DNA of 64,000 bases from Numidum massiliense (lineage in GTDB: Bacteria; Bacillota; Bacilli; Thermoactinomycetales; Novibacillaceae), in the NCBI RefSeq assembly GCF_001375555.1, contig NZ_CTDZ01000009.1:3465758-3529757 (forward strand), written 5' to 3'. Position numbers and translations under genes: made by a program. Shown piece by piece: positions 1,445 through 5,236 of the stretch; position 1 is the first letter of the stretch, and every line of letters begins with the position of its first letter. The notes under the pieces were generated by a model that was not told the origin of the DNA, made no database searches, and saw only the letters and a list, made by a program, of their open reading frames with translations.

Positions 1445-2380
1445 ATGGAAGTCATCAAAATTACACCGCGCGGCTACTGTTACGGTGTCGTCGACGCGAT
1501 GGTGATCGCGCAGCGGGCGGCGAAAGACCCGACGTTGCCGCGCCCGATTTACATTTTAGGAATGATTGTCCACAACCGCCACGTCGTGGATGCTTTTGAC
1601 GAAGAAGGAATTATTACTCTCGATGGAGAGAATCGGATACAACTATTAGATCAAATAGACAAAGGAACAGTTATTTTCACGGCGCACGGCGTGTCGCCAG
1701 AAGTAAGGGCGAAAGCGCAGCAAAAAGGGTTAACCGTGATCGATGCGACGTGTCCTGACGTGACGCGGACGCACGACCTCATTCGCGAAAAGACGGCGAA
1801 TGGGTACGATGTCGTGTACATTGGAAAAAAAGGGCATCCGGAGCCAGAAGGAGCGATCGGCGTTGCCCCAGACCGCGTGCACTTAGTGGAGAAGGCGGCC
1901 GACGTCGCTGCCCTCGACCTTAGTAACGAGCAGATCATCGTGACGAACCAAACGACGATGAGTCAATGGGACACGCTGCAGTTGATGGACCTTATTCGCG
2001 AGAAATACCCGCAAGCCGAAGTGCATAACGAAATATGCATGGCGACACAGACGCGGCAAGAAGCGGTTGCTGAGCAGGCAAAACAGGCGGATGTCACGAT
2101 CGTCGTCGGCGACCCGCGTAGCAACAATTCGAATCGACTGGCGCAAGTTTCGGAAGAAATTGCTGGTGTTAAGGCGCATCGCATTAGTAACGTAAGTGAA
2201 ATAAAGCCAGAATGGTTGTTAGGCAAGAAAAAGGTTGCTGTCACTTCGGGCGCTTCCACGCCGACTCCGCTAACGCGCGAAGTGGTCAAATACGTCGAGC
2301 AGTTCGACGAAAATGATCGTCACACGTGGCAGCCGCAGCGCATGGTTGACGGTAAAAAAATATTGCCGAAAATTCGATAA
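1445..2380 (+). CDS. ispH: 4-hydroxy-3-methylbut-2-enyl diphosphate reductase
   Basis: This is the last enzyme of the MEP isoprenoid route. It reduces HMBPP to IPP and DMAPP with a [4Fe-4S] cluster. The three cluster cysteines are visible at about residues 12 (RGYCYGV), 103 (DATCPDV) and 198 (NEICMAT), along with the conserved HNRHVV, TAHGVS and SNNSNRL blocks. The length of 311 aa is normal. The start at 1445 is preferred over an upstream in-frame ATG because a TTGGAGGGGA ribosome site sits directly before it and the family motif begins at once ([12 protein letters not shown]). It supplies precursors that the cyclase at 49-51 kb would need. It stands alone, with no other MEP gene nearby. Confidence 0.97.
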
Positions 2381-2472
2381 CTGTTGCTACAAACTATACG
2401 GAAAGGGACATTGGTATAAGTGACGATAACGTAAGAGAAGCTAGGGCGTTGAATGAGGAGGGAGGGGAGCAG

Positions 2473-3045
2473 ATGGAAGAAAGAAGGAACGACAAAGAGT
2501 ACGGCTATGCGTCGGGCGTTAAGATTGGTGGCGAAGCGGATCGCGACGCTAGCTACTCCGAATACGATGCCGACACCCGCTACGACCGCGATACACACTA
2601 CGACGGTGCAAGCCATACAGAAAATACGCCGTTCACGGGTGCGTACAATGGAGGAGATCAGCCGCACGGACAGCGTCTTTACGAGGGAACCAGCGGAGCT
2701 CCGTACGGTGACGGATCACCAGTTGGGGGTACGTACGATAGTCATGGAGCGGGTTCGCTATACGGACAACACATGACAAAGAAACCTAACGGATTGGGGA
2801 CGGCCGGGCTAATTTGCGGCATTGTCGGGGCTGTTTTGGCAATCGTTCCTGTATTTCTCTGGTTTTTCTCCTTCGTATTGGGTATTTTAGCCATCGTTTT
2901 TGGCGCCATTAGCAAAAAAAGAGACGGTTCGGGAATGGCCGCGATTGTGTTAGGTGCGGCTACCTTTGGGATCATGTTGTTGTGGGTCCTCGGTTTCGTA
3001 TTATTGGCCGCGGTATTCGAAACACAAGGGACGCAAATGTACTAA
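2473..3045 (+). CDS. DUF4190-type membrane protein with a long Gly/Tyr/Asp-rich N-terminus
   Basis: The first ~105 residues are hydrophilic, low-complexity and rich in Asp, Tyr, Gly and Ser. The C-terminal half has two long hydrophobic segments with the pattern LGTAGLICGIVGAVLAIVP and a second helix before the end, typical of DUF4190 proteins. The start at 2473 follows a strong GGAGGGGAGC site; an upstream in-frame ATG at 2449 lacks one. The function of this family is unknown, with a membrane or envelope location expected. The low-complexity N-terminal region faces one side of the membrane and could be an interaction region. A hairpin follows the gene. Confidence 0.7.
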   Translation: MEERRNDKEYGYASGVKIGGEADRDASYSEYDADTRYDRDTHYDGASHTENTPFTGAYNGGDQPHGQRLYEGTSGAPYGDGSPVGGTYDSHGAGSLYGQHMTKKPNGLGTAGLICGIVGAVLAIVPVFLWFFSFVLGILAIVFGAISKKRDGSGMAAIVLGAATFGIMLLWVLGFVLLAAVFETQGTQMY

Positions 3046-3067
3046 CAGGATTGTACTGACGGAACGG

Positions 3068-3102
3068 AAGAGGGGCTGGCTTTAGTGAGACCAGCCCCTC
3101 TT
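3068..3102. terminator. Shared hairpin between convergent genes
   Basis: A perfect 12-bp stem (3068-3079 with 3091-3102, AAGAGGGGCTGG) encloses an 11-nt loop between the DUF4190 gene and the convergent FlhA-C-like gene, whose stop codon it touches. T-tracts are weak on both sides, so termination is likely but not certain. Confidence 0.6.
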
Positions 3103-3844
3103 ACTCGATGCGGTGGATGACGGCGGTCGGTCGCTTCGGTGGCGGGAGTCGCTTTTTCTTTTGCTTAGCGACGTATTTGACGATGTCGTCCGGGTGGGCG
3201 CTCGACCATTCCGGAGGTGCATGACCCTGTGGCGGGTGTACGACATAGTACGCGACGATCGTCTCTAGCAATTGTTCAAATGGATGGAGTGGGATGCGTT
3301 GCGCTAACAGTTTACGCATCACTTGCCACATTAAACCAGTGGTCATCCCTCTTTTCTCCAACTCTTTATACAGCAGAGGTGTATGGGTGCGCGCTTGTAG
3401 CCACCAGCGCGACGCTGTTTCAAACGTTAACAAGTCGGGTGCTTTTTTCTCCATAACGTAAAGTAAGTGGTCGAGCAACAGATCGGCCGCAGGTGTCCCG
3501 TCACTGTCCGTCCACACGCCAGCCTCGTTCGTCACGGGATGAACACCCGGCTCCCCCTCCTCGTGTACACTGCTGAACAGGAGCGGCGGGCGTAACACAC
3601 CTTCGCCAGCCAGTTGCCCCCGCGTGCGCACGACGTAACGGTGCGGGGCGAGCTCGGTCGGCTTAATGCGGATGGCTGGGACAAAAAGACCGTGTGTACC
3701 CATAATGCGCTGTCGCAAGTGCTGGACGCGGATGGCAAGGTCCGTCTGTTTAAACAGCGTGTCGTACAGAGACGCCCCAAGCTCCAATGCGAGTACATCG
3801 TATTTTTGTTTGCTGTAAGCATCAGAGATGGACCAGTCGTTCAT
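3101..3844 (-). CDS. Stand-alone FlhA C-terminal (cytoplasmic) domain protein, FHIPEP family
   Basis: The 247-residue product lines up with the cytoplasmic half of FlhA, the export-gate subunit of flagellar type III secretion. Markers are an N-terminal LELGASLYDTL, the block GLFVPAIRIKPTEL near residue 55, the VVRTRGQLAGEGVL strand, AADLLLDHLLYVMEKKAPDLLTF, and LMWQVMRKLLAQRIPLHPFEQLLETI near residues 170-200. No transmembrane half is present, the ribosome site AAGGGGG precedes its own ATG, and no flagellar genes are near, so this is not a broken flhA. It lies 57 bp downstream of the YfhH-like gene on the same strand and probably shares its transcript. It could be a soluble binding platform for export-type clients, or a repurposed domain; I know of no assigned function. 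Confidence 0.8.
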   Translation of the reverse strand: MNDWSISDAYSKQKYDVLALELGASLYDTLFKQTDLAIRVQHLRQRIMGTHGLFVPAIRIKPTELAPHRYVVRTRGQLAGEGVLRPPLLFSSVHEEGEPGVHPVTNEAGVWTDSDGTPAADLLLDHLLYVMEKKAPDLLTFETASRWWLQARTHTPLLYKELEKRGMTTGLMWQVMRKLLAQRIPLHPFEQLLETIVAYYVVHPPQGHAPPEWSSAHPDDIVKYVAKQKKKRLPPPKRPTAVIHRIE

Positions 3845-3901
3845 CGGATATGATCCCCCTTGCGCGTCGTATTTTCATCCTCTGTCACTGCCGGGATGTC
3901 A

Positions 3902-4213
3902 TTAATAGTCGGGTTGGTAAAGGCGGCCAAGTGGGAAGGCGCGTTCCGGTTCCTCGTTGTTGAGGTAACCCCAAGCCATTACCCCGTTAATGTACGTTAC
4001 TTTAAAAACGCCAGCCTCGCCGTGAATGTGGTAAACCGTTCCGGGCACGATGTGCTTCGGGTTGACGAGGTACGATTTTGCAAAGTAATATTGCTGTTCG
4101 AGCACATTCACCTCATAAAACCTACCGGCGCGCAGCTTCTGGTCTGCCTCTTGGCGTAGGCGCTCAGTTTCTTGGATAAGTTCATCGCGATTCATTTGGC
4201 TAAATCGATCCAC
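3902..4213 (-). CDS. yfhH: YfhH family protein (DUF1811)
   Basis: The 103-aa product opens with FSQMNRDELIQETERL, an amphipathic helix, then a middle block VLEQQYYFAKSYLVNP and a C-terminal beta-rich part with the family hallmark YINGVMAWGYLN. This order matches B. subtilis YfhH. The start codon is GTG with GGAGG nine bases before it. It is the first gene of a probable two-gene unit with the FlhA-C-like protein and is divergent from the phosphatase-superfamily gene. Its biochemical role is not known; the family is confined to Bacillales and relatives. Confidence 0.8.
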   Translation of the reverse strand: MDRFSQMNRDELIQETERLRQEADQKLRAGRFYEVNVLEQQYYFAKSYLVNPKHIVPGTVYHIHGEAGVFKVTYINGVMAWGYLNNEEPERAFPLGRLYQPDY

Positions 4214-4312: not shown

Positions 4313-5236
4313 ATGGCAGTCTTACTGTTATTTATCGATGGCGTCGGCTTAGGCGACCGCGCATCGTACAATCCGTGGTACGCGTTGCCGACGCCGCACG
4401 TAAACCGCTTGTTGGACGGGCAGTCGCTAACGAAAGAGGCTGTCGGTTCGTATGCGGACGGGGTGCAGCTCGTCGCGACCGATACGCTGTTAGGCGTCCC
4501 TGGGTTACCGCAAAGTGCGACGGGTCAGGCGACAATTTTTACCGGGAGAAACGCGCCTAAGTTTTTACAAAGGCATATGAGCGGCTTGCCGTTTCAACGT
4601 TTGCGCCAGTTCGTGCGCGAAGACAACTTGTACTTACAGTTGGAGCGCGCCGGGCTGCGGCCGACGTTTGCCAACGCGTATACGGAGGAGTACTTTGCCC
4701 GTCCGGCGACGAAGCGAGGCTGGATGTCGGTATCGACAGTAGCGATCGACAGTGCAGCGGCACCGCTGCGCTTCACGCAGCATTTGCTCCAAAACCGTGC
4801 GCTCTTCCACGATTTGACGCGGGCGTATCTACGCCAGCTTCGTCCCGACATTGCGGAGGTCACACCGGAAGAGGCGGCGGAGCACGCGCTCGCGCTCGTC
4901 TCGGACTACGACCTCGTCGTGCATGAATATTTTTTGAGTGACGTCGCTGGCCACAAACAGGTGCCGGGGATGATCGAGAACGTCGTCGATACGTACGACC
5001 GCTTTCTCGGGCACATCGCAAAGGGCAAGCGACGCGAAGACACAGTTATTTTGGTCAGTGACCACGGAAACAGTGAAGACTTTCGCCGGCGCACGCACAC
5101 GATGAACGAAGTTCCCACGTTAATCGTCGGACCGGTTCCGCCGCTCGGCGAGGAAGGGCGAGCGAGTTGGGATTTGACGCGCATTGTGCCACTCATTCGT
5201 CGCGTGCTCGACGTCGAACACCTACAAGTAAATTGA
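4313..5236 (+). CDS. Alkaline-phosphatase-superfamily metalloenzyme, phosphomutase-like
   Basis: The motifs are those of the two-metal phosphomutase/phosphatase fold: LLFIDGVGLGD at the N-terminus (metal Asp), QSATGQATIFTG (Ser/Thr nucleophile) near residue 65, HEYFLSDVAGHK in the middle, and VSDHGNSEDF with a following HT-NEVPTL metal site near residues 250-270. The last resembles cofactor-independent phosphoglycerate mutase. At 307 aa it is far shorter than GpmI (about 510) and lacks its inserted domain. The start at 4313 has an AGGAG site; the upstream in-frame ATG does not. The substrate is unknown. It is separated from fabI by 199 bp. Confidence 0.8.
   Translation: MAVLLLFIDGVGLGDRASYNPWYALPTPHVNRLLDGQSLTKEAVGSYADGVQLVATDTLLGVPGLPQSATGQATIFTGRNAPKFLQRHMSGLPFQRLRQFVREDNLYLQLERAGLRPTFANAYTEEYFARPATKRGWMSVSTVAIDSAAAPLRFTQHLLQNRALFHDLTRAYLRQLRPDIAEVTPEEAAEHALALVSDYDLVVHEYFLSDVAGHKQVPGMIENVVDTYDRFLGHIAKGKRREDTVILVSDHGNSEDFRRRTHTMNEVPTLIVGPVPPLGEEGRASWDLTRIVPLIRRVLDVEHLQVN

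Follow-up and report, generated by a model that had tools for sequence, protein, structure and literature searches.

FlhA is regarded as a protein that cannot be separated from type III export, and the locus analysed here raises the question of what a part of this protein might do by itself. Within the window (the whole 64,000-nucleotide stretch of Numidum massiliense DNA under analysis), a 247-residue protein resembles the cytoplasmic domain of FlhA (FlhA-C). Profile searches placed this protein in the FHIPEP superfamily PF00771 (E 1.4e-16; 60.6 bits, against a curated Pfam cut-off of 29.1 bits), with the match covering profile positions 326-534 of 657, and all nine aligned members of the stand-alone family scored above that cut-off. 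The FlhA model TIGR01398 also matched (E 1.4e-15), with a score far below the full-length cut-off of that model, and a phmmer search against the PDB retrieved FlhA-C of H. pylori (3myd, 4e-9) and of Salmonella. In addition, an AlphaFold2 model built from ten orthologues (pLDDT 80.8, pTM 0.76) had FlhA-C crystal structures as its best PDB matches (E 3.7e-14, TM 0.73). The first-pass annotation had proposed a stand-alone FlhA-C fold, and both the profile search and the structure prediction bear this out. The extent of the domain had to be revised: the profile start, the model and the alignment agree that domains D1-D3 are retained and that D4 is missing along with the membrane half, and the coding strand was corrected to minus.

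The absence of a membrane half, also claimed at first, was confirmed. No second FHIPEP match was found in the whole genome (3.76 Mb, 9 contigs, 100% complete), and no FlhA membrane half adjoined the stand-alone gene in any orthologous locus read; a frameshifted or split full-length flhA was rejected on these grounds. FlhA proper combines a multi-span N-terminal membrane domain, domains D1-D4 and a chaperone dimple with the company of FlhB, FliP and the MS ring, and the window protein falls outside that definition.

The gene has its own ribosome-binding site and lies next to yfhH on the same strand, as originally described (Table 1). The terminator-like hairpin that follows its stop codon has a folding energy of -25.3 kcal/mol (z -6.86), a stability reached by none of 200 shuffled sequences; it is near-palindromic and possibly serves both directions. 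A sigma-70 promoter scan gave no site 5' of the yfhH-FlhA-C gene pair on the same strand. In the f2 loci L027, L028 and L029, a conserved GGGTATATTATA...GATGATAGGA arrangement is present upstream of the stand-alone gene, where it may constitute the gene's own promoter. Between ispH and the stand-alone gene, the window also encodes a 198-aa protein (2449-3045, plus strand) whose N-terminal half is repetitive and rich in Tyr, Asp and Gly and precedes two hydrophobic segments. This protein had no significant match in Pfam or NCBIfam and no relative in the related loci examined.

Table 1. Features of the stand-alone FlhA-C locus in the window (coordinates are window positions).
Feature	Position	Strand	Basis and remarks
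Stand-alone FlhA-C gene	3101..3844 (stop included)	-	ATG start, 247 aa; FHIPEP D1-D3
N-terminal motif M-x-[DE]-W-x-x-[STA]-[DE]-A-Y-x-x-Q, residues 1-13	3806..3844	-	54% invariant columns, most conserved segment
D2-equivalent, residues 76-118	3491..3619	-	Chaperone dimple lost ([DE]PAFG to HPxxx); alignment with 30 full FlhA
D3, residues 138-220, with family-specific insert PPEW...HP (residues 204-220)	3185..3433	-	Conservation and alignment
Ribosome-binding site AAGGGGGAT	3845..3865	-	Shine-Dalgarno about 8-10 nt 5' of ATG, read directly
Intrinsic terminator-like hairpin	3066..3101	-	Immediately 3' of the stop codon of the stand-alone gene
yfhH (DUF1811)	3902..4213	-	PF08838, E 2.9e-28; 57 bp upstream of the stand-alone gene, codirectional
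Alkaline-phosphatase/phosphoglycerate-mutase superfamily gene, divergent	4313..5236	+	PF01676, E 3.6e-15; conserved neighbour
ispH	1445..2380	+	Conserved anchor at the opposite flank; related loci carry 68-80% identical homologues in the equivalent position

The searches recovered orthologues from 13 genomes; in 12 of these, from four families, the reading frame is intact. Matches to PF00771 occurred in 11 of the 42 genomes of the window's order, ten of them with the stand-alone protein only. Neither full FlhA nor FlhB, FliP, FliF or FliS was detectable in the window genome or in the other nine carriers of this group (G000-G009). The remaining carriers are flagellated: one of the window's own family (G018) and two of a sister order (G046 and G069). 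The survey for co-occurring full flhA gave a divided answer, as 10 of the 11 carriers in the order do without it, and G018 and both sister-order genomes have both; in the latter two, full FlhA is accompanied by a stand-alone protein of 225 aa. FlhB, FliP and FliS were each found in only one of the 42 genomes of the order, G018, and FliF in G018 and as one marginal match in G037, which has no stand-alone gene. A wider survey of 399 Bacilli and 398 phylum genomes, which is a partial sampling, added only G046 and G069 among the matches listed, nearly all others being full-length FlhA frames. A scan of named genomes returned as carriers only Kroppenstedtia guangzhouensis, Marininema halotolerans and one MAG, and a literature search, with most subscription journals outside its reach, found no paper on stand-alone FlhA-C.

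One proposal for such a protein was that free FlhA-C regulates export or acts as a decoy, competing with FlhA for chaperone-substrate complexes. The matched fold and the three genomes that pair full FlhA with a stand-alone gene or a broken copy (G046, G069 and G018) are in line with it, but ten carriers have no detectable component among the five export proteins surveyed, which excludes both roles for the window genome and the nine others. In flagellated G018, moreover, the stand-alone copy is frameshifted (L036 9542-10281) beside a five-G run (GGGGG), which may reflect genuine decay or a sequencing error.

The residues involved in docking point in the same direction. In Salmonella FlhA, D456, F459 and T490 bind the chaperones FlgN, FliS and FliT (PMC8166844). 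The corresponding chaperone signature [DE]-P-x-F was present in 30 of 30 full FlhA vs none of 12 stand-alone proteins, and the Thr of THL in 30 of 30 vs 1 of 12. A model of a sister-order protein lacked the extra D2 strands and still matched FlhA-C structures. With these residues gone, the docking-platform property that the first-pass annotation gives for FlhA-C is not retained, and the loss also counts against the regulator or decoy proposal, which is highly improbable. Among the roles suggested at the outset, recruitment elsewhere is the one that survives in the aflagellate carriers.

Conservation within the family was concentrated elsewhere. Apart from the N-terminal motif, invariant columns amounted to 41% in the PPEW...HP insert, which is missing in the FlhA rows shown of the alignment, and to 30% in the D3 helices; D2 was not among the most conserved parts. 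The N-terminal motif lies directly N-terminal of D1, the place of the ring-stabilising linker in the FlhA alignment; the correspondence is positional, without sequence identity, and model confidence over the motif is low (pLDDT about 36). In Salmonella FlhA, the linker (E351, W354 and D356) contacts D1 and D3 of the subunit next to it, and FliJ binds the D4 inter-subunit cleft (PMC8166844).

We then considered the history of the gene. In the phylogenetic tree, all stand-alone proteins formed one clade with 100% bootstrap support on a very long stem of 2.5 substitutions per site, a length that prevents placing the family's origin precisely within the FlhA tree. Values of dN/dS were 0.084 (G001/G002), 0.104 (G001/G003), 0.094 (G002/G003), 0.155 (G006/G007) and 0.054 (G004/G005, near saturation). 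Ratios of about 0.05-0.15 in congeneric pairs without flagellar genes indicate purifying selection there and, together with the single clade, that the gene is not a decaying remnant. That it is a functionless leftover of a lost flagellar gene is accordingly very doubtful: flagella have been lost in most carriers, and the stand-alone gene itself disappeared on several occasions and carries a frameshift in G018, but selection, the intact frame in 12 genomes of four families, the invariant motifs missing from FlhA, the presence beside full FlhA in the sister order and the gene's own ribosome site and terminator all speak against a relic. A mobile origin was also rejected, with no phage match and only distant plasmid matches (about 25% identity), the annotated ones being flhA of Alphaproteobacteria.

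Gene order in the related loci runs from ispH, through genes for a TPR-membrane protein, HxlR and DoxX in one family, to the FlhA-C gene and yfhH, with the phosphoglycerate-mutase-like gene divergent; in f2 and in G005, a 5-formyltetrahydrofolate cyclo-ligase gene is inserted between the FlhA-C gene and yfhH. Several species of the same families keep this order intact minus the stand-alone gene, so that its function is dispensable; no convincing remnant of it was found in species without it. The synteny and distribution make the gene look old, vertically inherited and lost several times, and its presence together with full FlhA in the sister order indicates that it predates the loss of flagella. 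Other neighbours were also recorded. Adjoining the locus is a gene for a TPR protein whose N-terminus is hydrophobic (L030 11387-12115; same site in f3 genomes), conserved also in relatives without the FlhA-C gene. A 127-aa protein without a Pfam match (cl12; L030 7742-8122), beside the phosphoglycerate-mutase-like gene, is conserved in most loci of the order. In the sister order, uncharacterised proteins of 187 aa (L071 9566-10126) and 151 aa (L072 2879-3334) are encoded convergent to the stand-alone gene, and the 187-aa protein had no Pfam match.

The reported linkage to yfhH held in all 11 carriers of the order, with yfhH directly upstream in seven and one gene away in four. It did not extend to the sister-order carriers, where ispH was nearby and no yfhH match was found in the stretch read around the stand-alone gene. 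The arrangement within the order, and a DUF1811 crystal structure that suggested two binding sites (PMC3614154), would fit YfhH as the partner of the stand-alone protein. However, 19 genomes of the order have yfhH but no FlhA-C gene, so that linkage alone is weak evidence, and together with the sister-order loci this makes the partnership unlikely; the linkage mostly reflects ancestral gene order.

The carriers belong to a spore-forming group that mostly lacks flagella, and SpoIIIAG and SpoIIIAH share ring-building folds with T3SS rings. The protein could thus serve a sporulation or envelope assembly resembling type III secretion, for instance as a factor that docks on the SpoIIIA-SpoIIQ channel. 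In the loci compared, no neighbour of the stand-alone gene was recognised as a sporulation gene. The stand-alone gene is missing from much of the order (f4-f6 and some of f3) and so cannot be a core sporulation part; this role is quite improbable.

The conservation of the family in spore-formers mostly without detectable export genes suggests that a part of the export machine has apparently been re-used, and we consider the stand-alone gene very probably to be a domesticated (exapted) paralogue of the FlhA cytoplasmic domain. The stand-alone proteins represent a new and diverged branch within a known family of domains, and their job is probably independent of export; in the flagellated G046 and G069, a residual flagellar role may persist. 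In the scenario that we propose, an FlhA-C copy minus the membrane half would have settled near ispH in the ancestor of the window's order and the sister order. Thereafter, D4 and the pocket for chaperone docking would have disappeared, the N-terminal motif and, in D3, the PPEW...HP insert would have been added, and purifying selection would have kept the gene after flagella vanished. Most likely, the product would be a soluble homo-oligomeric scaffold or adaptor that works in the cytosol independently of type III export: the N-terminal motif might stand in for the linker by which an FlhA subunit holds on to D1 and D3 of its neighbour, and D3 with its insert might display a binding surface for a partner. 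The surfaces under constraint are those of subunit contact in FlhA, whereas those for export docking have been lost; the most economical explanation of this pattern, from which we infer oligomerisation and the adaptor role, is a homo-oligomeric adaptor that has acquired a new partner. A ring former of the FlhA-C type builds a homo-nonamer through contacts of the linker with D1/D3, and in the stand-alone family it is the conserved N-terminal motif and D3 that bear on such a ring. Exaptation and the soluble oligomeric-adaptor mechanism, taken together, stand at or slightly under an even chance. The broader statement is evenly balanced: in spore-forming Bacilli that are mostly aflagellate, a domain of the type III gate would have been exapted to a process other than export, as a soluble protein that forms rings or serves as an adaptor, and would have outlived its machine.

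A family of FlhA-C proteins under purifying selection without an export gate indicates that the domain is able to carry an independent function, and offers a natural system for learning what the D1-D3 module does alone. In the aflagellate carriers, such a test is clean, since there is no flagellar phenotype to interfere. As a caution, neither flagella nor type III secretion should be deduced from an FHIPEP match in a genome.

Compared with known systems, the family shares with FlhA-C (PF00771, TIGR01398) the D1-D3 fold, the order of secondary structure and significant sequence similarity. It differs from FlhA in having no membrane half, D4 or chaperone dimple, in its new N-terminal motif and D3 insert, and in its occurrence in genomes that hold none of the other export-gate genes tested. 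The C-domains of the injectisome proteins SctV, YscV, CdsV and MxiA also matched the window model structurally (E about 1e-10), whereas sequence similarity to SctV was marginal (TIGR01399, E 0.02) and the window genome has no type III gate gene of the FlhB/SctU or FliP/SctR families. The stand-alone FlhB C-domain, of the YlqH/FhlB type, is an earlier known example of an export-gate protein whose cytoplasmic half occurs on its own. Unlike the family described here, it is FlhB-derived and of unrelated fold, and it is absent from all aflagellate FlhA-C carriers; within the order, it was present only in flagellated G018, as a 191-aa frame.
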